Below, one piece after another: positions 2,685 to 32,892 of a stretch of DNA of 33,772 bases (the first letter of the stretch is position 1; every line of letters starts with the position of its first letter). Where the stretch lies: IMG/VR virus record IMGVR_UViG_3300000228_000014, positions 1-33,772 of that record. One strand, written 5' to 3'. The notes beneath the pieces were generated by a model, which was given only the letters and a program-made list of their open reading frames with translations, was not told the DNA's origin and did not search any database. A program made the translations under genes and the position numbers. The stretch comes from a virus.

Positions 2685-3280
2685 TGTACGACTCCATTAA
2701 AAAGTTTATTAAATTTAGTACAAAACTCTTCAGGTGTGTGAGGGTCTAACCAACCTAAAATCACACCACCAGGCTCCAAGCAAAATTTAGCAGCTAGTAC
2801 CATATCTTCTATCTCAGGTAATGTGTCTTCATCAATATGTTTATAAAAATCCATAAATATAAAATCGTACTTATTTTTTGTAAGTATCATGTGTCTAATA
2901 CCATCTTGATTGACTATGCTGTGCTTACTAACATCATACGTTATCCATTTATTACTCCTAGTATCTAATAAGTCAATACAGTCTTTATGTGTGGCTATGA
3001 CATCTTTCCTTAACTCCACAGTAGTCAAAGAAGTTACTTGTGGATAAGTTAGTATACATCTTGAAGCTACTCCTAAACCTAAACCTATCTCTAAACATTT
3101 ACCTCGCGGTTTATCTCTAAGTTGTTCCATGTATACAGAGTATTCGCTTTCAAGAGCCCATAAATTGTGTCCTGGCCCTACTTCTAAAAATAGCTCATCA
3201 AACATTTCATATACAGTCACTTTACCATGCTTACTAATTACTTTACCCTCTTTAAAATAAATACCTGTAGCTGATTGCAT
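2681..3280 (-). CDS. Class I SAM-dependent methyltransferase, spermidine-synthase-like
   Basis: 199 residues. Motif I is KCLEIGLGLGVASR (about residues 61-74), followed by an acidic strand end TTVELRKD (about 85-92) and the fourth strand YDFIFMDFYKH (about 138-148). The closing region LEPGGVILGWLDPH has the post-motif of class I methyltransferases. The order and N-terminal beta part (FDELFLEVGPGHNLWALES) resemble spermidine synthase-like folds, but aminopropyl transfer cannot be told from methyl transfer here. Ribosome site GAGG lies 7 bases before ATG 3280. Its stop overlaps the next gene's ATG. Function in the phage is unknown; a polyamine or small-molecule methylation role would be inference. 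Confidence 0.7.
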   Translation of the reverse strand: MQSATGIYFKEGKVISKHGKVTVYEMFDELFLEVGPGHNLWALESEYSVYMEQLRDKPRGKCLEIGLGLGVASRCILTYPQVTSLTTVELRKDVIATHKDCIDLLDTRSNKWITYDVSKHSIVNQDGIRHMILTKNKYDFIFMDFYKHIDEDTLPEIEDMVLAAKFCLEPGGVILGWLDPHTPEEFCTKFNKLFNGVVQ

Positions 3281-3304
3281 ATAAGTGCCTCAAAAGTTAT
3301 TAAA

Positions 3305-3778
3305 TCATTGCACTACATTTTCCTGATCTTGATCTTCTTGTTGGTCGTATATACTCTGTACTAATAAGTGTAATTTAGAAACCCAACTAGGGTCGTCAAT
3401 ATTTTTTTGAATTTCTGTGGCGAAATCTTCTATATCATGCCCTACGATTTTCAACTTTCCAGTTTCTTCCAAACTAATATGACTCAACTCATGGGAAATC
3501 ATACGTTTTCTATTAATTTCTGATGCGTACTGCCAAGCTAGTGCGTCCATAGTAAGTAAACAATCATACCCTTCTGGTGCGTTAGCATCAGCAGTAAGAA
3601 ATTTTACCTTCTCATTAGTTAGTTCTATAGCAGTTAAAACAACAGACCCCTTAGAAACACGCTTTTTTGTATTAAAAAGTAGCTTAAATTTAACACTTTC
3701 CAGCCAATTAAACTCGTTAGTAATAACATCGTTGAACATTGTTTCAAAATCATTGTTAGCATCTAAGTATCTATTCAT
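3305..3778 (-). CDS. Putative phage zinc metallopeptidase (HExxH)
   Basis: 157 residues with the zinc-protease motif HELSH at residues 96-100, preceded by a helix (WQYASEINRKRMIS) and followed by KLKIVGHDIEDFATEI, which could offer the third ligand. The two His and the Glu are all present, so it may be active. This matches the pattern of the putative phage metallopeptidase domain, usually 120-160 residues, whose substrates are unknown. AAGGAA lies 6 bases before the ATG. Related proteins in phages are not known to be secreted, and no signal peptide is seen here. Confidence 0.65.
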   Translation of the reverse strand: MNRYLDANNDFETMFNDVITNEFNWLESVKFKLLFNTKKRVSKGSVVLTAIELTNEKVKFLTADANAPEGYDCLLTMDALAWQYASEINRKRMISHELSHISLEETGKLKIVGHDIEDFATEIQKNIDDPSWVSKLHLLVQSIYDQQEDQDQENVVQ

Positions 3779-3799
3779 TGTAATTTCCTTTTTTTAATA

Positions 3800-4096
3800 T
3801 TATTCAACAAACATTTTAAATTCGCCTGTACGCTCGTTCACAGAATAAAAAACTTTAGTGGCACCATCATAATAACCAATACAACGCTTCTCTATAGTAA
3901 ATGACTCGGCACACCCAGGGACCATAGAAGCTGAGTTACGTACAAAGTACGCAGCCTTGTCTACTAAATCCCATCGTCTATTATCAAAATAGAGCGATAG
4001 TTGTTTTATATCTTTTTTTGGAATCTGCTTCCACTCATACTGCTCTTCAGTCATTATTGACCCATCTAATAATGTTACTTCCCACCCTCTTTGCAT
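3800..4096 (-). CDS. Small conserved-looking phage protein, unknown
   Basis: The start at ATG 4096 (MQRGWEVTLLDGSIMTEEQY) is chosen because AGGGAGG stands 4 bases before it; upstream in-frame codons have no such site. The 98-residue product is soluble and rich in aromatic residues (WKQIPKKDIKQLSLYFDNRR, CIGYYDGATKVFYSV). It has two cysteines but no motif I recognise. It sits in the small-gene cluster between the metallopeptidase and a zinc-binding mini-protein. Confidence 0.6.
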   Translation of the reverse strand: MQRGWEVTLLDGSIMTEEQYEWKQIPKKDIKQLSLYFDNRRWDLVDKAAYFVRNSASMVPGCAESFTIEKRCIGYYDGATKVFYSVNERTGEFKMFVE

Positions 4097-4122
4097 AAAG
4101 CCTCCCTTAGTAATTTTACACC

Positions 4123-4314
4123 TCAGCAATTGCTAGATAATTTAGCACCACAAAAAGGACAAAAATTAATAGGCATACCATAAATATGTTTTTTATGGAA
4201 AGCCCCTTCATCTGAAATTTCTATCCATGAAATAATTATACCATAATTTTCATGTTTTTGAAACAAAAAAGGATGGTCTTCTAAAACTTTTTCAAAATTC
4301 TCACAACAAATCAT
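4123..4314 (-). CDS. Mini-protein with a C-terminal CPFCG zinc knuckle
   Basis: From ATG 4314 the product is 63 residues: MICCENFEKVLEDHPFLFQK at the start, a beta-like middle (YGIIISWIEISDEG) and the ending INFCPFCGAKLSSNC. The CPFCG pair plus the two N-terminal Cys could bind one zinc. An in-frame TTG at 4347 would add 11 residues but lacks a ribosome site. The strong GAGGAGG at about 4339-4345 is separated from ATG 4314 by a perfect hairpin (CCTACTT/AAGTAGG). Folding of that hairpin would bring the ribosome site to a normal distance. Confidence 0.55.
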   Translation of the reverse strand: MICCENFEKVLEDHPFLFQKHENYGIIISWIEISDEGAFHKKHIYGMPINFCPFCGAKLSSNC

Positions 4315-12628: not shown

Positions 12629-12740
12629 GTGAATTACATCGCCCACAATGGGCAAGGCTTCCTGCTTCAACGAGGGCCTTACTGCAGCCGTTCTCCACAG
12701 GCTTAAAATCGCGTCATCCCAACGCTATTTTACAAATGCA
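12629..12740 (-). ncRNA. Omega RNA scaffold region of the tnpB element
   Basis: The right-end region after the tnpB stop holds GGATGACGCGATTTTAAGCC TGTGGAG and then GAAGCAGGAA and a hairpin. This kind of sequence forms the omega RNA that loads TnpB, with the guide taken from the flank. The predicted guide is the adjoining TTCCAGTATCTTTTGTTAGC. A 27-base core (12693-12719) recurs with one mismatch at 14388-14414. The exact 5' end, probably inside tnpB, is not determinable by eye. Confidence 0.6.
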
Positions 12741-13816
12741 AAATTTAATATATTCTTAGCGGCCAAAATGTCACGATCATGCACTGCACCACACTCACAA
12801 GTCCACACTCTGTCAGTGAGTTTAAGACCTCTGTTTATAGTACCGCAGATGTTACACATTTTAGAACTTGGTTCAAAGCGACCAATTACTTTAACAGCTT
12901 TTCCGCTCCATGCCGCTTTATAAGTACAGAATGAGCGGAATTGACTCCAGGCAACATCAGAAATATGTCTGGATAACCTCCGATTTTTCAAGAGGTTAAT
13001 AACAGCAAGGTCTTCAAGACAGACTGCTTGGTTCTCACTAATCAGTCTATTAGACAACTTGTGTTGAAAATCTTTCCTCTGGTTGGTTAACTTTTCATGT
13101 ACCAATGCTACTTTATGCCGTACTTTGTTTCTATTACTGGAGCCTTTCTTTTTGCGAGACAAACTACGTTGTGCTCTGGCAAGTTTCTTTTTAGTGGTTT
13201 TTATTAGTCTTGGGTTTGCTATTTTTTCGCCAGTTGAAAGAATAGCAAAATCTTTAATTCCAAGATCAACCCCTATAGATTGATTAATATCTGGTACAAT
13301 GGCAACTGGCTCTGGATCACTATTGTCAACCAAAATAGATGCAAAATATTTACCTGCTGCAGTACGGGATACAGTTACAGTTTTAATCTTACCCTCAAAT
13401 GGCCTGTGTAGTATTATTTTAACATCTTTAATTTTAGGGAAAGAAATCTTGCCGTGTTCAAAGGCAACTTTTACACCTTGTGGACATTGAAAAGATTGTT
13501 TACTGCTTTTATTTTTAAACTTTGGGAAATTAGCTTTCTTACTAAAAAACTTTGTGAACGCAGTATCAAGGTTTCGTAAAGATGCCTGCAATGACTGGCT
13601 ATTAACATCTTTAAGCCAAGGAAACTCTATCTTTAGCGGAACTAGCATATTTGTTAAGTCAAACACAGAAAGATTCTTTTTGTTTTCTTGTGTATGTGCT
13701 TTAACTTTTTGCTCAAGACCAAAATTATATACCCAGCGAGCACAACCAAAATGTTTTGCAAAATATTGTTGCTGGACGGTGTTTGGGTAGAGCCTGTATT
13801 TGAATGCTTTAATCAT
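12725..13816 (-). CDS. tnpB: TnpB, RNA-guided endonuclease, apparently intact
   Basis: 363 residues, close to the usual 350-410 for TnpB. The N-terminal HTH-like part reads AFKYRLYPNTVQQQYFAKHF then GCARWVYNFGL. RuvC I is GVDLGIKD (Asp184), RuvC II is AVCLEDL (Glu268), and RuvC III is VHDRDILAAKNI (Asp347/Asp349). The zinc finger CNICG...CECG (321-343) sits between. The Asn normally seen in DRDxNAA is Leu here, which may matter. The protein would cut DNA next to a short target-adjacent motif using the omega RNA from its own 3' end. In this phage it probably helps the element survive or spread by cutting element-free alleles. Only a weak ribosome site is visible before ATG 13816. Confidence 0.92.
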   Translation of the reverse strand: MIKAFKYRLYPNTVQQQYFAKHFGCARWVYNFGLEQKVKAHTQENKKNLSVFDLTNMLVPLKIEFPWLKDVNSQSLQASLRNLDTAFTKFFSKKANFPKFKNKSSKQSFQCPQGVKVAFEHGKISFPKIKDVKIILHRPFEGKIKTVTVSRTAAGKYFASILVDNSDPEPVAIVPDINQSIGVDLGIKDFAILSTGEKIANPRLIKTTKKKLARAQRSLSRKKKGSSNRNKVRHKVALVHEKLTNQRKDFQHKLSNRLISENQAVCLEDLAVINLLKNRRLSRHISDVAWSQFRSFCTYKAAWSGKAVKVIGRFEPSSKMCNICGTINRGLKLTDRVWTCECGAVHDRDILAAKNILNFAFVK

Positions 13817-13913
13817 GCTTAAATATAGTACCTGTTGAGTGAGTTGTTAAAAATTGTTTTACATTAAACACCCGTCTTACATTCGTACCCACAAGGGGTA
13901 CGGTTTTACGGCG

Positions 13914-14042
13914 CTATGATAAAAGATTACCTAATCCAGACAAATAACCTCCCCCATCATCGTGAATAAACAGCACATATCCAAATGAAACTAAAGTCAC
14001 AATTGTTGGTAGCATCCACCAAGTAATTGTTATAGTCATCAT
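13914..14042 (-). pseudogene. N-terminal piece of the interrupted two-helix membrane protein
   Basis: ATG 14042 overlaps the upstream stop as TAATG. Forty-one residues of the native protein follow (MMTITITWWMLPTIVTLVSF, GYVLFIHDDGGGYLSGLGNLL), then one foreign codon and a TAG inside the element's left end. The first part is one membrane helix (about 8-25), and a second lies in the 12573-12628 fragment. The rebuilt protein has 59 residues with two helices and a short acidic loop, of the size of small phage membrane or lysis accessory proteins. Its function is unknown. It sits next to the tail genes. Confidence 0.75.
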
Positions 14043-14269
14043 TAACTAAATAACCAACTAAAAAAGGTGCTACCTTCTTTAGGTATATCTTCTGAATTTC
14101 TTGCAGCCCGCGCCATAGCAATATTTAGTTGGTCTATGGTAAATAATGCTGGGACTTCTTTACCATCGGAAATAACTATATATGCAGGATAATAAGCAGA
14201 GTTACTACCAAAAGATCTACAAGTATTGGCTACCTCTTCTTCCATTTTAATCTTTGAATCAATACCCAT
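14042..14269 (-). CDS. Small conserved-type phage protein, unknown
   Basis: 75 residues: an N-terminal helix (MEEEVANTCRSFG), a beta hairpin (YYPAYIVISDGKEVPALFTI) and a helix (QLNIAMARAARNSEDIPKEG), ending with an aromatic tail. The NNAYYPAxxVxDGxxVPALFTxxQxxxAxxRAxxN pattern is one I associate with small phage proteins of unknown role. Ribosome site AAGGAA is upstream of ATG 14269. Its stop overlaps the start of the interrupted membrane gene, so the pair was probably translated together. Confidence 0.6.
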   Translation of the reverse strand: MGIDSKIKMEEEVANTCRSFGSNSAYYPAYIVISDGKEVPALFTIDQLNIAMARAARNSEDIPKEGSTFFSWLFS

Positions 14270-14326
14270 AATAACCTGATTCCTTTAACTTATAAAAACT
14301 TAATAAGTCATAAATTTTAAGTAAAG

Positions 14327-14448
14327 TTCCTGCTTCTCAGTCCGTAGTTTCACTCAAGCAACAATGCTCAAGCCAGAGCTGTCCAGACTCCACAGGCTTA
14401 AAATTGCGTCATCCGAACCCATAATTGATGCGGTTTTACGACGACACG
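14327..14448 (-). ncRNA. tnpB-less copy of the element ends, possible standalone omega RNA
   Basis: About 122 bp. On the minus strand it starts after TTTAT (14449-14453) with CGTGTCGTCGTAAAACCG, contains GGATGACGCAATTTTAAGCC TGTGGAG, and ends in GAAGCAGGAA at 14327. The left end and scaffold match the tnpB element at 12629-13918, but the coding region and the right-end hairpin are missing. The middle has its own stems (GCTC/GAGC, AGTC/GACT). If transcribed, the base-pairs after GGAA would be a guide: CTTTACTTAAAATTTATGAC. It may be a MITE-like deletion derivative or a guide RNA used in trans by the nearby TnpB. It lies wholly between two genes. Confidence 0.65.
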
Positions 14449-14465
14449 ATAAATACAATACTACA

Positions 14466-14840
14466 CTACTTACGTTTATTAAAACCAAATCCCTTAGTTT
14501 TAACTTCCGTCTCTTTCTTCTCCAGAGTTTCCTGTGATACCTCTACAACAGCCTCCACAGCAACTGGCTCTTCTACAACAGGCGTATCTTCGACTACTTT
14601 AACTTCCTCAACCACTGGATCAATTGTACTAGCAGCTACTTCGGCAGCAACAGCGGCGTCTGTCTCTTTTATAGACTCTTCAATAAAAGGTTTCATAGCG
14701 GTCATTATCTTTTTACCATAACTTCTTGCCCTAGCTACAGAGTTAAGATCATTTTCCTCACACCACTTGTTCCCTAAAGACTCAAATTCTCTTACAAATG
14801 TCATAATTTCTTTAAACAAAACTTTTGATACGTTATCCAT
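14466..14840 (-). CDS. Hc1/histone H1-like domain protein with long acidic tail
   Basis: 124 residues. Residues 4-58 (SKVLFKEIMTFVREFESLGN, KWCEENDLNSVARARSYGKK) share the pattern of the 15963-16142 protein (SKTVLAEMQEVFNTILEDGA, KWVEKDNNSAAARLRKSTLA), so the two are paralogues of the small histone H1-like (Hc1-type) family. The rest is an Ala/Val/Glu-rich low-complexity tail (VEEVKVVEDTPVVEEPVAVE) closing with a basic KGFGFNKRK. The acidic tail is opposite in charge to that of typical DNA-condensing Hc1 proteins. AAGGAG lies 5 bases before the ATG. The role may be nucleoid or genome packing; this is inferred from the family only. Confidence 0.6.
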   Translation of the reverse strand: MDNVSKVLFKEIMTFVREFESLGNKWCEENDLNSVARARSYGKKIMTAMKPFIEESIKETDAAVAAEVAASTIDPVVEEVKVVEDTPVVEEPVAVEAVVEVSQETLEKKETEVKTKGFGFNKRK

Positions 14841-18878: not shown

Positions 18879-20171
18879 TTATACAGCTTTAGCATTTATA
18901 GTATTACTTGTAAACTCAGCTATGGCTTTCATAGCATTTTTATTACATACTACATCACTTGGTATATGTGTAGAGTATTTAATTGAATCAGTAGATCCAA
19001 AGCCACCATCACCTCTACTAGATTCTGATAACTCATCTACTTCTACTACATTAAAATGTTCTATCTTTCTAGGAATTATCTGTGCGCATCTAAAAGGCAA
19101 ATCAGGTAAAGGTTTTGTTACATCTATCTTTTGTAACACTATTTTCACAGGACCAACATAACTTTTATCTAGCACACCAACGCCACCAACAAAATGCATA
19201 TTATTTTTTGGAAGAGAGCTTCTGCCAACCATATCAAAATAGTAACCAAGAGGTGGTTCAAGAGCAAGTTTAGTATTGCCCATATATAAACCATTACCCA
19301 TGTCCTCAAACTCTACTACACTTAAATCATAGCCACTGTCTGTAACTCTAGCTTTGTATGGTAATGTAGCGTCTTTTCTTAGTTTACATACTTTGAAGCT
19401 ATCTATAGTTATATGCTTGTTACTAGACTGTCTTGGCTCGTAATTTAAAATAGAAACAAAATAATTGTACTTCTTCTCATGACACAAAGTAACGTTTTCA
19501 TACATTTTTCCACAAATATCTAAAGCCTTGTTACCATAAGATCTGATGTTCAAACCATCACTATAATTAACCTCCCATAACAAAGCTAATTTTCTTAAAA
19601 ATAATACTGAGTTTGAGCGTATCTTTATAGCAGGATAGTTGTAATCGTACCTAAAACCGCCATCACCATCAAAAACACCACAAAGAAATGACCAATGGAA
19701 CTCTTCAGGAATGTCAGGAAATTCTATAGTGGAGCTTTTCTTACCTACATTTATACCACCTAAAGACAACAAATATTCTACAAATGTTTTACTACCAATT
19801 GTCAATTTAGCTTTTAGGCCTGTAGGAATTTCTTGGTAAGTGCATATATTTTTTCCAAATATAATATGCGATATTTTCTCCAAAAGCTCACCAGAATACT
19901 CTTTATGTTGTACTATCTGTACATTTTTCGTAGTTAAATGACCGTCAGACCATATTAAACCTAATATGTAAGCACCATTGTGATTAAGGTTGAATATACA
20001 TGATAAATCTGGTACATGTTTAATAAAAGGATTTCCTTCCCCTAAATAAGATCTACTTCTAAAAATGTTTAAGCACTCTTTACTACAGAAACTGTGCTTT
20101 GTTCTGTTAAGTTCCGACTGTGATTTAAACAAGTATTTATTACATTCGGAACACTGCACTTTTTGCAACAT
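18879..20171 (-). CDS. dut: LAGLIDADG endonuclease fused to dUTPase
   Basis: 430 residues in one frame from ATG 20171 (GGAGGGG 6 bases ahead). Residues 7-33 are a C2C2 zinc knuckle (CSEC...CSKEC). Then come two LAGLIDADG helices: AYILGLIWSDGHL (67-79) and FLCGVFDGDGG (162-172). From about 257 the chain is a complete trimeric dUTPase: SGYDL (279-283, motif 1), GRSSL (316-320, motif 2), GVLDKSYVG (332-340, motif 3 with catalytic Asp), RCAQIIP (361-367, motif 4), SRGDGGFGSTD (385-395, motif 5). A normal dUTPase starts near the KVCKLRKDATLP segment, and no ATG or HN-type splice junction exists there. It is thus a translational fusion rather than an obvious intein. dUTPase hydrolyses dUTP to dUMP, which ThyX can use. 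A 35-residue extension follows motif 5. Confidence 0.88.
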   Translation of the reverse strand: MLQKVQCSECNKYLFKSQSELNRTKHSFCSKECLNIFRSRSYLGEGNPFIKHVPDLSCIFNLNHNGAYILGLIWSDGHLTTKNVQIVQHKEYSGELLEKISHIIFGKNICTYQEIPTGLKAKLTIGSKTFVEYLLSLGGINVGKKSSTIEFPDIPEEFHWSFLCGVFDGDGGFRYDYNYPAIKIRSNSVLFLRKLALLWEVNYSDGLNIRSYGNKALDICGKMYENVTLCHEKKYNYFVSILNYEPRQSSNKHITIDSFKVCKLRKDATLPYKARVTDSGYDLSVVEFEDMGNGLYMGNTKLALEPPLGYYFDMVGRSSLPKNNMHFVGGVGVLDKSYVGPVKIVLQKIDVTKPLPDLPFRCAQIIPRKIEHFNVVEVDELSESSRGDGGFGSTDSIKYSTHIPSDVVCNKNAMKAIAEFTSNTINAKAV

Positions 20172-20174
20172 AAT

Positions 20175-20399
20175 TTACCCCTCCACTAATTCTTCAATAT
20201 AAAGATATTTCTCACCAGCCTTACAACCTAAAATAACATAAGGGCTTGTATGCTCACAACCCTTGTCAAAATAAAACAAAGCACACCAACTACCGCATAG
20301 AACGTCGGTAGAAGAATGTGGGCAACGCCCGTTCAAGAAAAAAGATTCTTTATCTTTAGTAGATTCTAATGCGACACCATAACTTGTAAATACCTTCAT
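20175..20399 (-). CDS. Small cysteine-rich protein, unknown
   Basis: 74 residues with six cysteines and several His (RCPHSSTDVLCGSWCALFYF, then GCEHTSPYVILGC). The spacing suggests a metal-binding or disulphide-stabilised fold, but no family is recognised. GGAGGG lies 3 bases before ATG 20399. The end of the gene (GTGGAGGGGTAA) carries the ribosome site of the dUTPase fusion gene, so the two are tightly linked. Confidence 0.55.
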   Translation of the reverse strand: MKVFTSYGVALESTKDKESFFLNGRCPHSSTDVLCGSWCALFYFDKGCEHTSPYVILGCKAGEKYLYIEELVEG

Positions 20400-20837: not shown

Positions 20838-23800
20838 TCAATCTTGTACCCCCTCACATTTAGCGCAGACCAGTTTTGAACCATAATGCTCGTCAGCTAT
20901 AAATTTCATAACATTATGTCCACATTTTTCACCAGAAACATCTTTAGTTTCACAATCCCCTTTAAGCCAACAAGGACCTATAGCAGGAGATGTGTACATA
21001 GGCATAACAGGGAAGTAGTGGTTAAAAGCGTCATCGACCGCACTTACTGCCACTTTAGCCACTTCCTCACAATGTTCTTTTGGGGACTCGATTACGATTT
21101 CATCATGAACCGATAAAATAAGTTTAGCACCAACATTAAGTTCCTCAAGTCTATCAACACAGAGTATCATGGCTAGTTTAATAGTATCGCTGTCGCTCCC
21201 CTGTACCGAGTGATTTTTAGCCGCCCTCTCTACAGCGCCAATTATAGATTTTCTGGATGGATCGCTCATTGGAGGTATATTATAAAAACGATGCCTACCT
21301 GTAATAGTAACACTACTATGAGTTCTAATGGCATCTTTAGCTGTTTTATTAAGCCAATAATTTAAAGCACTGTTTACTCTAAAGTAAGCATTAATAAGTT
21401 TTTGTGCTTCATCTTTAGAGATGTTTAAACGCTTTCCTAAGCCTACAGCAGAAATACCATAGCAATTATGTACTACAAAGCCATTAGCTAAAAACAACTC
21501 CCTGTTAGCTACTGATATATCATATACCGGTCGTATCCCTACAGATTTTATAGACTTTATTGGCAATGGTACTATATTATTTTCATATATAAAAGATAAC
21601 TGTTTGTCATATACATGTAAAGCCATTAATTGTTTTTCTGTTATTTTATTAAGTTTATCTTTATTATTTAAAGAACTTCTACAACATGATAATAATCTAT
21701 GTCCTATCCTATAACAATTTCTATGTTTGTAGTCTGTAGTAGATAGGTCTTTTCTTAAAATGTCATTATTAGATTCGTGTACATGCTCAATTAAAGTATT
21801 TAAAATATCTCCTTGGTAAGGTACTGAGTAGGAAGGAAATTCTTTTTCCAAATCATAACTAACAGGCGTGTACTTACTGTTTTTATAGTTAGTAAGAAAG
21901 CCGATATCACTCATAAAAAGCCTTCTACTATTTTCCCCTATTATAATAACTTTATAATAATGCCTATCTGGATATCTTTTGTCGTGACACTCTACTAGTG
22001 AAGATAAAATACCAAAATTTAATAACATACATTGCAAGTCTTTACAAAGATTCAACGCCATAGAGCTATATTCTATCTGTGATCTATTTAGCTTAGTGTA
22101 TATAGTACCATCACCCTCATACAACGCTGACAAAAAAGCAGCTTGTATACGTTTTGGACTCTGTTTAATACAGTTAGGTATAGCTATATCTATAGTTTTA
22201 TTAATGCATGACTTTATATCACATAAGTCATATACAAATTTAGCAAACTTTTTAGAACTAAGATTATAGTAAACTAAAGGCATTGTTTTATAGTAGTTTC
22301 TACGCACTTTCTTATACACAGAAGAAAAAATATCTTCTAATATACAAAGGTATTCTTCAACTTCAGGAGAAAACCCAAACGTCACATTCACAGGTTCTTT
22401 ACGTTTATTTTTTTGTAATGATCCCTCAGATACAAACGTTCCTAAGAACTTAGCCATATTCTCGTCTAAAGTTTTAGGTAAAACTCTTTTAATGACATTT
22501 CGCATAGCATCATATGTACTTGTATCAAACACATAAAGTTCTTCTGGGAACAGATTACTACCCTTTTTTAAACAAACAAAGTCTGATTTTACATTTATAT
22601 CTTTAAGTTTCTTATCTACATAATTACCATTAACATCTATAACTTTTACTTCATGGTCTTCCGTAGCATTTAAAGTATAACCATATTTTGTTTCTATCTG
22701 AAAACATTCTTTATCGCCCATGAATTTTTTATCTATTACTTCGTCTGAACCTATATCATGTGCAACAACATCTCCTATACTAATATCTTTAATTTTAACT
22801 ACACCTGATGAGCATAAAATACTAGAATCTTCAGCAACGCACAAGCCAAATGATATAGCTTTTGAGGCTTTTCTTTGTTCTGATGTTACCTCATCATAAG
22901 GTACATTATAAACACGAGAGGCATTAACTGTATGTAAATCTAATCCTTTCTTGTAGGTATCAATAAAATTAGGTTCGCCAGACATGGCTCCCATGATAAT
23001 TAGTTCAGCTGAATTTTGGTCAATTGTTATAAGGACCTTACCATCATCAGCGATAAAACAAGATCTGAACTTTTGTTTTCCTGGGATATTCTGTAAGTTA
23101 GGGTTATTAGAAGACAACCTACCAGTAGAAACCATTTGTTTAAAATCTGTGTGTAACCTACCAGTTTTAGGATGTATCCTATCAACTAGAGCTTCACCGT
23201 AGGTATTGACAAGCTTAGAATTTTGTCTATAAGATAGCAAATTATCAATTATTTTATTTCCTGAATATCTCTTTAAAGAATCACTAGCTGTAGACTCTAC
23301 TTTTAAACCTAACTTATTTAAAGCAGATTTAAGCTGGATAGGACTAGCTATATTTACAGTAGGTATGTCAAATAAAGACAACTGATCTTGTGTTACTTGT
23401 AAACTATTTTCAATGTCTGCTTTAGCTATTTCGAGTTCTTCAGAGAACTCTTTCATCATTATTCTCCATTTATCAGTATTAAGCTTAATACCATTTAATT
23501 CCATCTCAGCTAACGGTTTTGTAAAAGCCATTTCAAGTGCTAAAACTTCGTGTAAATTATATTTATTAATACGATCAAGCTGAGCGTTTCTAATTATATC
23601 TAAAACACATACATCATTGGCGGCGTATGCAAGTTGCCTTTCAGTGTACACTTGGTCATAAATCTCAAAAGTACCTCTAGGCTCTTTGTTCATACACATG
23701 CCGAGATATTTTTCTACTAACTTTGCTAAACTAAAACCGGACTCTTGAATACCTAGATAAAGTAGAATTTCTGCCAACATAGTATCATAAATATTTTCAA

Positions 23801-24149
23801 TATAATAACCATACTGAACTTTCAATACTTTCATATCGTAGTTAGCATTTTGTATAATTTTTAAATGCTTTTTACTTGTAAGGATGTCTTTAAATAAACT
23901 TCCGTGAATATTTATGCCTGGAAGGTCATTTCGTACATCAAAAACATAGGCCATATTTGGAACACCAATCTGTATTAAAGTTGTTCTACAGCTAAATGGA
24001 TCTAATGCAGTGCCCTCAGTATCTACCTCCAATATAGATTGAGTATCTAAAAAAGATAAAACTTTCTTTGCCCTTGTTTCATCTGTAATGTACTCATAAT
24101 TAGGAGTAGGTAGTTCTGGTAAATCTACTAATGTTGCTAAATCACTCAT
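20838..24149 (-). CDS. polA: Family A DNA polymerase with 3'-5' exonuclease, split by an intein
   Basis: 1103 residues as translated, 644 after removal of the intein (437-895). An RNase D/DnaQ-like exonuclease domain comes first: VDTEGTALDP (42-51) with Exo I Asp and Glu, NANYDMKVLK (101-110, Exo II), and Exo III near AYAANDVCVLD (174-184). Polymerase motifs follow: TGRLSSNNPNLQNIP (342-356), motif A IDQNSAEL (376-383), motif B KAISFGL/CYGI (430-436 and 896-899, cut by the intein), and motif C VHDEIVIE (1014-1021). The last ~35 residues add a CxH...CxxC knuckle (GEKCGH, LVCAKC), perhaps zinc-binding. There is no 5'-nuclease domain. It is the likely phage replicase and works with the clamp loader encoded immediately upstream (4-base gap). 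Confidence 0.95.
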   Translation of the reverse strand: MSDLATLVDLPELPTPNYEYITDETRAKKVLSFLDTQSILEVDTEGTALDPFSCRTTLIQIGVPNMAYVFDVRNDLPGINIHGSLFKDILTSKKHLKIIQNANYDMKVLKVQYGYYIENIYDTMLAEILLYLGIQESGFSLAKLVEKYLGMCMNKEPRGTFEIYDQVYTERQLAYAANDVCVLDIIRNAQLDRINKYNLHEVLALEMAFTKPLAEMELNGIKLNTDKWRIMMKEFSEELEIAKADIENSLQVTQDQLSLFDIPTVNIASPIQLKSALNKLGLKVESTASDSLKRYSGNKIIDNLLSYRQNSKLVNTYGEALVDRIHPKTGRLHTDFKQMVSTGRLSSNNPNLQNIPGKQKFRSCFIADDGKVLITIDQNSAELIIMGAMSGEPNFIDTYKKGLDLHTVNASRVYNVPYDEVTSEQRKASKAISFGLCVAEDSSILCSSGVVKIKDISIGDVVAHDIGSDEVIDKKFMGDKECFQIETKYGYTLNATEDHEVKVIDVNGNYVDKKLKDINVKSDFVCLKKGSNLFPEELYVFDTSTYDAMRNVIKRVLPKTLDENMAKFLGTFVSEGSLQKNKRKEPVNVTFGFSPEVEEYLCILEDIFSSVYKKVRRNYYKTMPLVYYNLSSKKFAKFVYDLCDIKSCINKTIDIAIPNCIKQSPKRIQAAFLSALYEGDGTIYTKLNRSQIEYSSMALNLCKDLQCMLLNFGILSSLVECHDKRYPDRHYYKVIIIGENSRRLFMSDIGFLTNYKNSKYTPVSYDLEKEFPSYSVPYQGDILNTLIEHVHESNNDILRKDLSTTDYKHRNCYRIGHRLLSCCRSSLNNKDKLNKITEKQLMALHVYDKQLSFIYENNIVPLPIKSIKSVGIRPVYDISVANRELFLANGFVVHNCYGISAVGLGKRLNISKDEAQKLINAYFRVNSALNYWLNKTAKDAIRTHSSVTITGRHRFYNIPPMSDPSRKSIIGAVERAAKNHSVQGSDSDTIKLAMILCVDRLEELNVGAKLILSVHDEIVIESPKEHCEEVAKVAVSAVDDAFNHYFPVMPMYTSPAIGPCWLKGDCETKDVSGEKCGHNVMKFIADEHYGSKLVCAKCEGVQD
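21465..22841 (-). other. LAGLIDADG intein in DNA polymerase motif B
   Basis: 459 residues, polymerase residues 437-895. It opens with Cys1 (CVAEDSSILCSSGVVKIKDI) and ends VVHN before Cys+1, all residues required for splicing. The endonuclease has two LAGLIDADG helices (FLGTFVSEGSL and FLSALYEGDGTI). Excision joins SFGL to CYGISAVGLGK, restoring the conserved O-helix, so the polymerase is inactive until splicing. Block B (NATEDHEVKV) is also visible. Confidence 0.93.
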
Positions 24150-28704: not shown

Positions 28705-29457
28705 TTAAACCTCCTTTAAAATAACTTGTGCCTTTGTTGGGTACTTTCCACAGGATCTTTTATAGTTTTCAGGACAATAACCAAGAGAAACACATCTGCT
28801 TCCAGTCTCATTAAACACACATGGTAGCTGCTCTTTACATACAGCTAACATCTTATTTGCCAAATCTCTTATTTCCCACTGAGCCAAAGTACAACACCTT
28901 AATCCAAAAAAATGTAGGAGTGCTACACAATTCATAGTAAGCACAATACGTGTTTTGGCAGCATTAGGTAACACGTATCTTGCATCTTCTGGTGCAATTC
29001 CATCATCCACTAGTATATTGTATGTGCTCTGAATGTCTCGCATTAGTTGAGTGTATAACAAATATGCTTCACTATTTTTACTAATTTTTGGAGGCACGAC
29101 AAAATCATCTATGTTAAATTCAACTGCTAAATTAACATACCGTTGACTCTGTTGACTATAGCTTGCAAGCCTATGTCTAACAAGTTGATGAGTTAAAGAT
29201 CTTGAAACACCATCAATAGCAAAAGTAAACTTGGCGTGTTCTAAAACACTTGTATGACCAGACTCTTTTAAATAAGTCACTAAACGTGTTATCTCTTTTT
29301 CTGAACAAGCATGTCCGTCTTTTAAATCTCTAACAACTATACCAAATGAATCTTCTTCCCAAGCATCACCAACCCAACCAGCAGTATAACACTGCCTTCC
29401 TGCAGCAAAAATGAGTTCCTTAGCATTAGGTGTTACTGATAATAATCTTAGTTCCAT
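28705..29457 (-). CDS. thyX: ThyX, flavin-dependent thymidylate synthase
   Basis: 250 residues. The signature RHRLASYSQQSQRY (94-107) matches RHRxxSxxxxSxRY, which binds dUMP and flavin. SGHTSVLEHAKFTF (66-79) and the C-terminal NAAKTRIVLTMNCVALLHFF with LRCCTLAQWEIRDLA follow the family order. The enzyme makes dTMP from dUMP with methylene-tetrahydrofolate, FAD and NADPH. It completes a dUTP to dUMP to dTMP route with the dUTPase fusion protein. The C-terminal extension (CVSLGYCPENYKRSCGKYPT) has three Cys. GAGGAGG lies 4 bases before the ATG, behind a promoter and a long inverted repeat. Confidence 0.95.
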   Translation of the reverse strand: MELRLLSVTPNAKELIFAAGRQCYTAGWVGDAWEEDSFGIVVRDLKDGHACSEKEITRLVTYLKESGHTSVLEHAKFTFAIDGVSRSLTHQLVRHRLASYSQQSQRYVNLAVEFNIDDFVVPPKISKNSEAYLLYTQLMRDIQSTYNILVDDGIAPEDARYVLPNAAKTRIVLTMNCVALLHFFGLRCCTLAQWEIRDLANKMLAVCKEQLPCVFNETGSRCVSLGYCPENYKRSCGKYPTKAQVILKEV

Positions 29458-29537: not shown

Positions 29538-31943
29538 TTATAATTGTTCTAACTTAATATTTTTAGTGTTTTTATTTACTTTACTAAGCTGTGCAGCCTC
29601 ATTGTCAAAGACCGCTACCCATTGCTTAGCTATATTACCTGACCAAGTCATATTATTCTGCGCCCAATCAAAAGCATTAATAGATTTTGTTAAAGCCTCA
29701 TCATAATTATCATAAACATGACACATCTTCTTTACTAAGTCATCTACATCAACAAGAGGTCGAAGAACATCATTGTCATTAGGTAGAGATGTCCACAAAC
29801 TTGATGAAGAACCACTGTCAGCTAAATAACCTAAGTCTTCTGATATAAGCTCTTTCATAGAAGTGTTGTTAGGCATTATTACAGGAATCTTACAAGCCAT
29901 GGCCTCTAACCAGGAATTATGTACTACTACATTTTCTGCTACGAAATCATTAGTGTTTGCTACTTGAATATCTACTAATTTCCCTTTGTAGTGTTCTTTA
30001 GATATTTGTTTAATTGGATATAATAAGTAATCATCGTTTTGTATAGCCCTATCATAACCATTTTCCCACTTACGTGTTTTATCATATACAATATTGAACA
30101 TATCGAGTAATTTTCTCTTTGAAGTACCACTAACATTTACCTTGTATTCAACCCTACTAGTTCTTACAGATGATAAAATATTTAGCCTGGCCATTATTAA
30201 TCTTAATGAATATGCTATATGCTTAGATGTAGTAGAAATAGAGAACTCATAAGTAGATTTACTATAACTACCATCTCCTAAGAACTCACCAAGTAGTAAT
30301 TCTTTTAGTAGCTCAGGTGATTGATTTAAAATATGTTTATGTATAAACTTATTTCTTGCACCTAATCCAAACAAAGATTTAAATAAAAATGCCACTACAG
30401 AAGAATAAAATATTATAGATTGCCCATTGTAGTTTCTTCTACTTCTATGATTCACAGGATGACTTTCCAACCCAAAAATTTCTAGCATAGACTTATTTAC
30501 AAAATTAATTAAATGTGTTTCATCTTTATGAAAACTAAACCCTATACTATCCATTTTAGAAGCTCCAACATGCCCCTCTGCTAAAAACAAGCCTAATAAA
30601 AACATGAGATCTTTTGTTACTTTTAGAGTCTTAGGTATAAATTTTGATTCTTTGGTGAAATTAGATTGTATTTTAAAATGTGTGCTTGTCTCAACCAAAT
30701 TATTTAAGTGTGCTTTATTTAAATAAGGTTTAATAAAAGATAGTACGTCTATGGTATTGCCGGTATCTTTAGTACTATTACTCTTAGGAAAAACTAAATA
30801 GTCACCTATAGATAGTTCTGAAGCTTTTTTCCAAACACAGCCTTTATCAGTCATAACTTTGAACCCGTGCTCTGCAGAAGACTTGACTGGGGTATTTGTC
30901 ATCCAAGTAGTTATACTGTATAAGTCACCATCATGCTTTTTTGTCATTATACCTTCGACAGCGTTATATGTGCCATCAGAAGACAATACTTTATCTGACA
31001 CTGTTAAATCTTTAATATACTTTATACCAGTATCAGTATAAATATTAGTATCATAATGAAGACACAGGCCCATACCTTCCCCTAATGTGGTACTAACTAC
31101 ACAATCAACACTGTTGTATAAGTAATTAACTACCTCAACTGGATAGCCTTGATTGGGTTCCATTTTTTCAGGTAGAACTACATCTTTACCTAGTTTAATG
31201 TCCATTGCTTCAAGCAGTTTTGGTATATTCCAACCCTGATCCACTGGTGCTGTGTGCAAATACAACATTGACTCTGGAACTACTTTTTTAAATTCTTTAA
31301 ATGCAAGTATGGTTCTGGGCAAGTCTTTCCTTTGTTGATTGCGGTTTACATTCATGAAAATAAATCTATCTTTACCATGAGAGAAATAAGAAGCCCTAAA
31401 AGAATTAATTTCTTCTGCAGATAATGGTTTGAAAACCTTGTTATCAACCCCGTGATAAATTACATCAACGTCTTGTTTATTAGGTAAATGTTTTAATAAT
31501 GCCTGTTTACCAAACTCAGTATAGGCAACCAGTTTATCAACATCAGCTAAATTTTTACACCACTCTTCTCTCAATATACTATCCACGGGGAAGTACATAA
31601 TTGTTCTGAACGGTTTAGCCCTGTTACTCTTAAGATGTTTAATAAGTTCTGGTAAAAAATCTACAATAAACGTGTCCTGTAAAACCCATAAAATATCAAA
31701 ATCATGTTGCATAGCAAAATAACAAAATTTTCGTCTACCATATGGATCTCCAGCTTGATAATCAGAAGCCGGCCAAATTCTATAAGGAAAGTCATATGGG
31801 TCGCCGTGATGATTGATACCAAAGATATCTATCTCATATCTACCAGTAGCATATAATTGTGCCAGTACATTCCTTGAAACCGTCCCAAACCCTGTGGCTA
31901 CTGTAGGGCTATCACAATAGCAAAGTATTTTTATTTTTTTCAT
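29538..31943 (-). CDS. GT4-type glycosyltransferase interrupted by an intein
   Basis: 801 residues from ATG 31943 (AGGTGAG ahead; an in-frame GTG at 31958 overlaps the upstream stop). Removal of the 383-residue intein leaves 418 residues. Extein features: ILCYCDSPTVATGFGTVSRN (Gly-rich acceptor loop), LVAYTEFGKQALLKH, VIYHGVDNKVFKP, FIFMNVNRNQQRKDLPRTIL, SVDCVVSTTLGEGMGL then SWLEAMACKIPVIMPNNTSM. The last two join across the intein into GEGMGLSWLEAMA, the donor nucleotide-sugar motif (Ex7E type). It probably glycosylates phage or host material; acceptor unknown. It lies next to HNH, thyX and a second GT4. Confidence 0.92.
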   Translation of the reverse strand: MKKIKILCYCDSPTVATGFGTVSRNVLAQLYATGRYEIDIFGINHHGDPYDFPYRIWPASDYQAGDPYGRRKFCYFAMQHDFDILWVLQDTFIVDFLPELIKHLKSNRAKPFRTIMYFPVDSILREEWCKNLADVDKLVAYTEFGKQALLKHLPNKQDVDVIYHGVDNKVFKPLSAEEINSFRASYFSHGKDRFIFMNVNRNQQRKDLPRTILAFKEFKKVVPESMLYLHTAPVDQGWNIPKLLEAMDIKLGKDVVLPEKMEPNQGYPVEVVNYLYNSVDCVVSTTLGEGMGLCLHYDTNIYTDTGIKYIKDLTVSDKVLSSDGTYNAVEGIMTKKHDGDLYSITTWMTNTPVKSSAEHGFKVMTDKGCVWKKASELSIGDYLVFPKSNSTKDTGNTIDVLSFIKPYLNKAHLNNLVETSTHFKIQSNFTKESKFIPKTLKVTKDLMFLLGLFLAEGHVGASKMDSIGFSFHKDETHLINFVNKSMLEIFGLESHPVNHRSRRNYNGQSIIFYSSVVAFLFKSLFGLGARNKFIHKHILNQSPELLKELLLGEFLGDGSYSKSTYEFSISTTSKHIAYSLRLIMARLNILSSVRTSRVEYKVNVSGTSKRKLLDMFNIVYDKTRKWENGYDRAIQNDDYLLYPIKQISKEHYKGKLVDIQVANTNDFVAENVVVHNSWLEAMACKIPVIMPNNTSMKELISEDLGYLADSGSSSSLWTSLPNDNDVLRPLVDVDDLVKKMCHVYDNYDEALTKSINAFDWAQNNMTWSGNIAKQWVAVFDNEAAQLSKVNKNTKNIKLEQL
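29916..31064 (-). other. LAGLIDADG intein in the glycosyltransferase donor site
   Basis: 383 residues (294-676 of the ATG-31943 product). Cys1 opens it (CLHYDTNIYTDTGIKYIKDL), block B reads KSSAEHGFKVM, the endonuclease helices are FLLGLFLAEGHV and LLLGEFLGDGSY, and it ends VVVHN before Ser+1. All splicing residues are present, with Ser as the extein nucleophile. It differs from the polymerase intein (Cys+1), so the two are not recent copies. Confidence 0.92.
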
Positions 31944-31947
31944 AAAC

Positions 31948-32892
31948 TCACCTATCACACTTTAATTCATTATAGCCACAGCCAGGTAGTGTGTGCACCT
32001 GTTTGTGATGTTCCTTACATAAAGTGACACAATTATTCATATCAGCTGATTCTATAGGGTTCTGAGACACCGGCTCAATATGATGGCAATGTAACTCTGC
32101 TTCTTCTATTCCAACACCACAAATCTGACATTGGTAGTTATCTCTGGCTAAAACTAGTTTTCTTAGTTGTGGTTGTACCTCTCTGGAAGTAGAAATTTTA
32201 AAGCCTTTGGGATATTTATGTTGTCCGTAAGTAGGGCAGGCTTTTTTACAATTTTCAGAGCAGTATAAATACCTATCCCCATAATTAGTGCTAGCTATAG
32301 AACCCAACCTCGATTCCACTTCTTTAATTGTTGGTACAAAAACCTGGTCACAGTACATACACTCAACTCCTAATAGCTCTAAACCGTTTTGTTCTATTTT
32401 ATAAACTGGTTGGTATTTTTCTAGTTGTGGTGCGTAAGTTGTATATAAAGGTACTTTTAATCTTTTAACCCCACCTTTCCATTGTGGATTATTATCACCT
32501 GTCTGGTTAATACCTTGATTAATATATCTACAAATAGGACATATACTACCGTTATGAACTCTATTCCATGGAGCGTGGTATGTATGGAACCTATCACATT
32601 CTATTAGTAATATAGACCTATTATTAATATAATCAGCTTCACTAGATAACAGCTTGTAACCACGCTTTGCAATGTACTCTCTTACATAACTAAACGGTTG
32701 TTTAGTCAAACCAGCACATATAATACAACCGTCACCTTGACGTACATAAGAAGGTTTTTTATAGAAAACCGTACCACAAGTATTACATGAACACTTTAAT
32801 GGTACATAACTACCGCTATAGACCGTATCAAGTAGAGTAAAATCAATGGAATTGAAGTCTTCTTTTACTTCCTCATAACTTAGCTTCTTCAT
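31948..32892 (-). CDS. HNH homing endonuclease with N-terminal zinc repeats
   Basis: 314 residues. The front carries two zinc-repeat units of the type seen in the 7276 gene (LKCSCNTCGTVFYKKPSYVR...CIIC, then FSYVREYIAKRGYKLLSSEA, INNRSILLIECDRFH...CPIC). A middle part follows that is shared with the 27877 HNH protein (VPLYTTYAPQLEKYQ, LELLGVECMYCDQVFVPTIK, YLYCSENCKKAC). The nuclease ends it: CQICGVGIEEAELHCHHIEP, NNCVTLCKEHHKQVH. It appears to be a mosaic of both. The tail LPGCGYNELKCDR has a matching scar after the RNR gene. It starts four bases past the PD-(D/E)XK gene and stops at the GT4 ribosome site. Confidence 0.87.
   Translation of the reverse strand: MKKLSYEEVKEDFNSIDFTLLDTVYSGSYVPLKCSCNTCGTVFYKKPSYVRQGDGCIICAGLTKQPFSYVREYIAKRGYKLLSSEADYINNRSILLIECDRFHTYHAPWNRVHNGSICPICRYINQGINQTGDNNPQWKGGVKRLKVPLYTTYAPQLEKYQPVYKIEQNGLELLGVECMYCDQVFVPTIKEVESRLGSIASTNYGDRYLYCSENCKKACPTYGQHKYPKGFKISTSREVQPQLRKLVLARDNYQCQICGVGIEEAELHCHHIEPVSQNPIESADMNNCVTLCKEHHKQVHTLPGCGYNELKCDR

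Follow-up and report, generated by a model that had tools for sequence, protein, structure and literature searches.

The window analysed here is a stretch of 33,772 nt, part of the IMG/VR virus record IMGVR_UViG_3300000228_000014 (43,008 bp); a ribonucleotide reductase and a DNA polymerase A with an intein are among its phage-type genes. Near its single intact tnpB element lies a short locus which looks like the guide RNA of such an element but has no tnpB, raising the question of what this solo locus is and where it came from. An earlier note, made from the letters alone, had placed it at 14327-14448 and had taken it for either a MITE-like deletion product of the neighbour or a second guide RNA used by the nearby TnpB in trans. 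It turned out that the locus is real and extends over 14275-14448 as a tnpB-less right-end guide RNA (reRNA, or omegaRNA). In our judgement it is probably a chimera, in which the left end of an IS605-like element and the right end of an IS607-type element were recombined at a core that both share.

The intact element (12629-13918, minus strand) is of the Y1 type (IS200/IS605-like) and consists of a left end after TTTAT, tnpB and a right end up to TTCAC. Its tnpB (12725-13816, minus strand) encodes 363 aa with RuvC motifs and a zinc finger, and is the sole TnpB gene in the 43-kb record. The protein has OrfB_IS605, Cas12f1-like and HTH domains, and its nearest cellular relatives (at most 53% identity) are from Methanosarcina and other archaeal and bacterial genomes. 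Downstream of tnpB, the right end reads GCGTTGGGATGACGC-GATTTTAAG-CCTGTGGAG...GAAGCAGGAA followed by a GCC hairpin and TTCAC, and in archaeal and bacterial genomes the right ends of TnpB relatives terminate in this way too. RAGATH-18 is the core of the IS607 TnpB reRNA, where it is accompanied by 5' and 3' flanking motifs (PMC11061315), and the reRNA which belongs to the intact element itself has its RAGATH-18-like core at 12659-12701 on the minus strand (RF03064, 26.3 bits). Besides, LAGLIDADG-domain inteins were observed on the minus strand in the DNA polymerase A (20838-24149) and in a large protein that weakly matches glycosyltransferases (29538-31958).

The solo locus, also on the minus strand, has the left end in common with this element. 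The TTTAT motif at its left end (14449-14453) is identical to that at 13919-13923, and the left-end alignment begins exactly there, with 33 of 44 ungapped positions identical between 13880-13923 and 14410-14453. Dinucleotide shuffling reached the score of this match (31) once in 20,000 trials, and the best score at any other place in the window is 22. The 5' part derived from the left end (CGTGTCGTCGTAAAACCGCATCAATTATGGGTTCGGATGACGC) covers 14406-14448; the right end of the intact element has a 5' hairpin to which GGATGACGC, within this part, is homologous as well. The right-end core is shared as well (29 of 31 nt between 12693-12723 and 14388-14418, plus GAAGCAGGAA). The sharing of both a left end and a right-end scaffold with the tnpB element, as described in the earlier note, is thus borne out, and so are a differing, longer internal stem between the shared blocks and the lack of coding sequence: the locus contains no tnpB, there is no ORF within 14270-14465, and no IS607-type tnpB adjoins it.

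The right part is of another class. The RAGATH-18-like scaffold core, CCTGTGGAG...GAAGCAGGAA with a 9-bp internal hairpin, lies at 14327-14396 (minus strand) and is followed at 14275-14326 by a 3' flanking stem and tip of an IS607-type reRNA (CTTTAC...GTTAAAGGAATCAGG), assigned by homology to IS607-type right ends. When virus contigs were searched by blastn, 14275-14405 showed 81% identity over 132 nt with 6042-6167 of contig L081, where a 367-aa TnpB has its right end. L081 encodes another TnpB, 57% identical to the first, which adjoins a MerR+Resolvase serine recombinase, and this is the architecture of an IS607 TnpA. We then aligned nine right ends of this class (class B) with the window copy left out, derived their structure by RNAalifold and built a covariance model, R1. 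It finds the solo locus at 14276-14427 with 83.8 bits (E 2.7e-17 over 122 kb; E 4.7e-19 with filters off over the 2.1 kb searched), against 38 bits for the right end of the intact element, and these are the only two matches in the record. RF03064 gives 22.2 bits for the solo locus, below the gathering threshold of 44.9, and is likewise sub-threshold for the tnpB-linked relative in L081 (26.1 bits) and for L070; with Rfam at gathering threshold there is no match in the window, and blastn against phage records gave no match. In the scan for this right-end class, L092, L093 and L094 have tnpB directly upstream, and L056, L069 and L073 have no detectable tnpB upstream (L069 with just 165 nt of upstream sequence).

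The covariance-model search proposed earlier therefore places the solo locus in the class-B reRNAs, and together with the sub-threshold RAGATH-18 match it supports an omegaRNA-like locus without tnpB. Several details had to be revised. The right boundary is not 14327, for the IS607-type homology runs on to 14275 in both the blastn and the covariance match. The right-end hairpin said to be missing is present as an IS607-type terminal stem, CTTTAC...GTTAAAG with an inner hairpin. The proposed second guide, CTTTACTTAAAATTTATGAC, falls in 14275-14326 and is the 5' arm of this terminal stem, while the predicted guide begins at 14274.

The class-B structure is upheld by covariation, the loop-to-3'-end pseudoknot included (pairing in 93% of cells; 15 pairs with changes in both partners; 0 of 500 shuffles). 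This pseudoknot, of the 5' loop with the 3' end, is supported in 97% of cells and corresponds to PK2 of ISFba1 (PMC11061315). In the solo locus, the internal hairpin is CTTGAGCA/TGCTTGAG, the terminal stem differs from that of L081 by a C-G to U-A double change in our own reading, and the 174-nt fold has a z of -2.74 against dinucleotide shuffles. As aligned to R1, the class 5' hairpin is broken here, and a predicted 8-bp stem (GTGTCGTC/GATGACGC), which joins left-end and core sequence, may be used by the solo RNA in its place. A 5-bp pseudoknot partner, GGTTC/GAATC, can pair, as 11% of shuffled loops do too. A fold that is kept does not show that a function is kept.

To place the right tip, we compared the locus with relatives which have no element at this site. 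Directly downstream of the solo locus is a 75-aa ORF (14042-14269, minus strand), whose Shine-Dalgarno has been replaced by the element's right end. The same gene without the element reads ...AACGAGG/TAATTATG in L052 and ...AGAGAGG/TAATTGACATG in L190, and the window reads ...GGAATCAGG/TTATTATG at the corresponding site, so that CAGG at the tip stands where the relatives have the Shine-Dalgarno GAGG. Since GAGG is followed by the same gene start in both element-free relatives, the right tip corresponds to the GG of the Shine-Dalgarno. It is also the place at which an IS607 crossover would be expected: in these elements crossover occurs at GG, and the scaffold includes the nucleotide flanking them on the right (PMC10711439). 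For this reason, the guide is predicted to start at 14274, directly after the GG tip; with the 20-nt length taken from PMC11061315, where guides are given as roughly 20 nt long and the TAMs as AGGAG or GAGGG, it is TTATTATGGGTATTGATTCA (14255-14274, minus strand). Judged by its letters, this predicted guide is the insertion flank, i.e. the start of the next ORF. In relative phages an extra gene (L052 5433-6460) lies between the homologues of the two ORFs flanking the locus; it is absent in the window and therefore points to a deletion or insertion at this place.

Searches for targets were negative. With as many as 3 mismatches allowed, the record has no second match to TTATTATGGGTATTGATTCA, and GG plus its first 16 nt had no exact match in viral contigs, where a relaxed guide pattern hit only the empty-site relatives and unrelated coding sequences. 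The site in L052 agrees with the predicted guide at just 13 of 20 positions (counted by eye), so no real target is shown. The guide first proposed, CTTTACTTAAAATTTATGAC, has no match in viral contigs either.

How could such a locus arise? Its left end would come from an IS200/IS605-like element that had entered after TTTAT, and its right two-thirds from an IS607-type tnpB element whose insertion site was the GG in the Shine-Dalgarno of the 75-aa gene. The two kinds of element share the reRNA core ATTTTAAGCCTGTGGAG, and the transition from left to right falls in a 16-nt core common to both classes, TTTTAAGCCTGTGGAG. Because the IS605-like left part and the IS607-type right part meet in this common core, recombination there is the origin we propose: two adjacent elements in the same orientation would have recombined at the core with deletion of everything between them, comparable to the formation of a solo LTR. 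The recombination event itself and both parents are unobserved, and we infer the origin from the arrangement of the sequence; a strict class-B pattern, run against 84,980 genomes, revealed no IS607 donor with matching ends. The resulting hybrid should be immobile, since its halves come from different element types and neither transposase is expected to move it as a unit. Read-through from upstream co-directional genes would transcribe it, the transcript would fold into an IS607-type reRNA with the insertion site itself (TTATTATGGGTATTGATTCA) as guide, and this RNA could direct an IS607-type TnpB, supplied by the host or by another element, to the unoccupied allele in related phages. A recent relic with its RNA scaffold kept is the most economical reading and the most likely one.

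The simpler derivations from the neighbour, an internal deletion of the intact element or a decayed copy of its right-end hairpin, were rejected, as the right end matches another class. Of the deletion product suggested earlier, the left end is indeed of that kind (33/44), but the right half is IS607-type. A plain MITE, that is, a non-autonomous derivative of a single element which is mobilised by that element's transposase and has no RNA role, would fit the recognisable left end after TTTAT and the recognisable right end, and tnpB-less copies with varied flanks do exist in other phages (L070, L063/L074, L068). We nevertheless regard it as unlikely, for the two ends are from different transposase families, the record has a single hybrid copy, and no transposase, Y1 or serine, was found anywhere in it. 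To the same small degree one may suppose that the hybrid is kept as Shine-Dalgarno and 5' UTR of the 75-aa gene, with the likeness to a guide RNA being ancestry only. The tip AAAGGAATCAGG does take the place of the relatives' GAGG at 6-9 nt before the start codon, but a Shine-Dalgarno alone would not keep a fold of 130 nt, an argument which depends on the age of the event.

Slightly less probable again is a dedicated second guide RNA for the resident TnpB (12725-13816) in trans, which would make a two-guide nuclease. The core is the same as that of the resident reRNA (29/31 nt), the locus is nearby and co-directional, the RuvC motifs of the resident TnpB are intact (GVDLG, EDL, HDRD), and the phage records G002 and G013 hold orphan reRNAs with TnpB genes elsewhere. 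However, the TnpB tree unites the class-B proteins in a clade (support 0.81, nested in one of 0.93) that is separate from the window protein, which groups with the proteins of TTCAC-ending scaffolds (support 0.6-0.93). Trans use by the resident TnpB, as the earlier note had imagined it, is unsupported because this protein belongs to the other, IS605-like scaffold clade, and the 3' scaffold of the solo locus is that of another TnpB clade. The guide, too, is simply the flank of the insertion, and was matched neither elsewhere in the record nor in viral contigs. Nor was a promoter found: there is no promoter match between the upstream co-directional 124-aa ORF (14466-14840, minus strand) and the solo locus, which is why this ORF is the possible source of read-through in our proposal. 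Sigma-70-like matches near the locus do not exceed the shuffle expectation (within two standard deviations), and one on the minus strand (14296-14268) is inside the terminal stem. Hardly more credible is that phages keep tnpB-less reRNAs, of which some have promoters and some lie in small arrays (such as the three within 1 kb in L073/G004), as multi-guide sets for a trans-supplied TnpB against rivals' unoccupied sites, the window copy being a hybrid member.

Orphan reRNAs as such are already known, and it is the hybrid make-up that is new in the solo locus. In a published survey, 10,258 of 16,029 RAGATH-18 RNAs adjoin an IS607 TnpB and 36% do not (PMC11061315). Among the virus loci with the core whose upstream sequence spans about 1.9 kb or more, 8 reRNAs have tnpB upstream and 10 distinct ones have none detected, although divergent TnpBs could be missed. 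From the 36% of the survey and the at least ten in phage contigs, the orphan arrangement is known and recurrent, and several of the tnpB-less virus reRNAs carry TTGACA/T-17-TAxxxT promoters.

For example, a 4.4-kb phage contig with no complete tnpB (L073/L200, G004) has class-B reRNAs at 3224-3358, 3649-3786 and 4042-4177 on the minus strand, all within 1 kb. Promoter-like TTGACA..TATAAT precedes the copies and two of them are directly followed by tRNA-like 3' portions; the triple is possibly a small guide array or a tandem duplication. Contig L056 of G002 (109,848 bp) has orphan reRNAs at 13599-13733, 20061-20195 and 29224-29358, the last without the class 3' end; its TnpBs at 68194, 83902 (broken) and 93444 are tens of kb away, belong to another clade and do not have this reRNA adjacent. 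The tnpB-less copies in L070 (3460-3668, which also has a left end), L063/L074 and L068 are of the IS605-like class with a full reRNA and a TTGACT-17-TATxxT promoter, and are candidate promoter-driven orphan guide RNAs. In L053 (1082-1233) and L069 (134-283), class-B reRNAs follow about 12 codons resembling the TnpB C-terminus (ATNILVMF), which suggests an internal deletion of tnpB.

If our reading holds, two transposon families can have their guide-RNA ends joined by recombination at a shared scaffold core. The product is a hybrid guide RNA which stands alone and may mark the beginning of a path from the cis guide of a selfish element towards a trans guide. Loading of such RNAs onto any TnpB would be relevant to the origin of separable guide RNAs; should none be loaded, the locus is a well-delimited relic which sets right a guide assignment that was tempting but wrong. 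The recurring, apparently promoter-driven orphan reRNAs in phage contigs are the more general lead.

Compared with known systems, the solo locus resembles the orphan reRNAs of L056, the L073 array, L070, L063/L074 and L068 in having a scaffold without tnpB directly upstream, whereas those have TTGAC(A/T)-17-TAxxxT promoters and ends of one class and the window copy has neither. With MITEs of the IS200/IS605 family and palindrome-associated elements (PATEs) it shares a left end after a short motif and the absence of coding sequence, but its right end lacks the hairpin plus TTCAC, and so it is not a simple internal deletion of that type. Unlike ISXfa1, which is autonomous with tnpA and tnpB, it has neither gene; like the ISXfa1-type IS607 reRNA (PMC10711439), it has the GG crossover at the right end and the right-flanking G in the scaffold, and a GG-ending TAM is plausible given GAGG in the empty relatives. 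It departs from RF03064 and the ISFba1 reRNA in having no adjacent tnpB, a score under the gathering cut-off, an IS605-like left end as 5' flank and a 3' flank of 52 nt against about 64. It agrees with the RAGATH-18 reRNA of IS607 TnpB (RF03064; ISFba1, PMC11061315) in the CCUGUGGAG...GCAGGAA core and the CCUGU/GCAGG closing stem, may form a 5' flanking hairpin and the ISFba1-type pseudoknot between 5' loop and 3' end, and has a 3' flanking stem loop with the predicted guide after the 3' flank.
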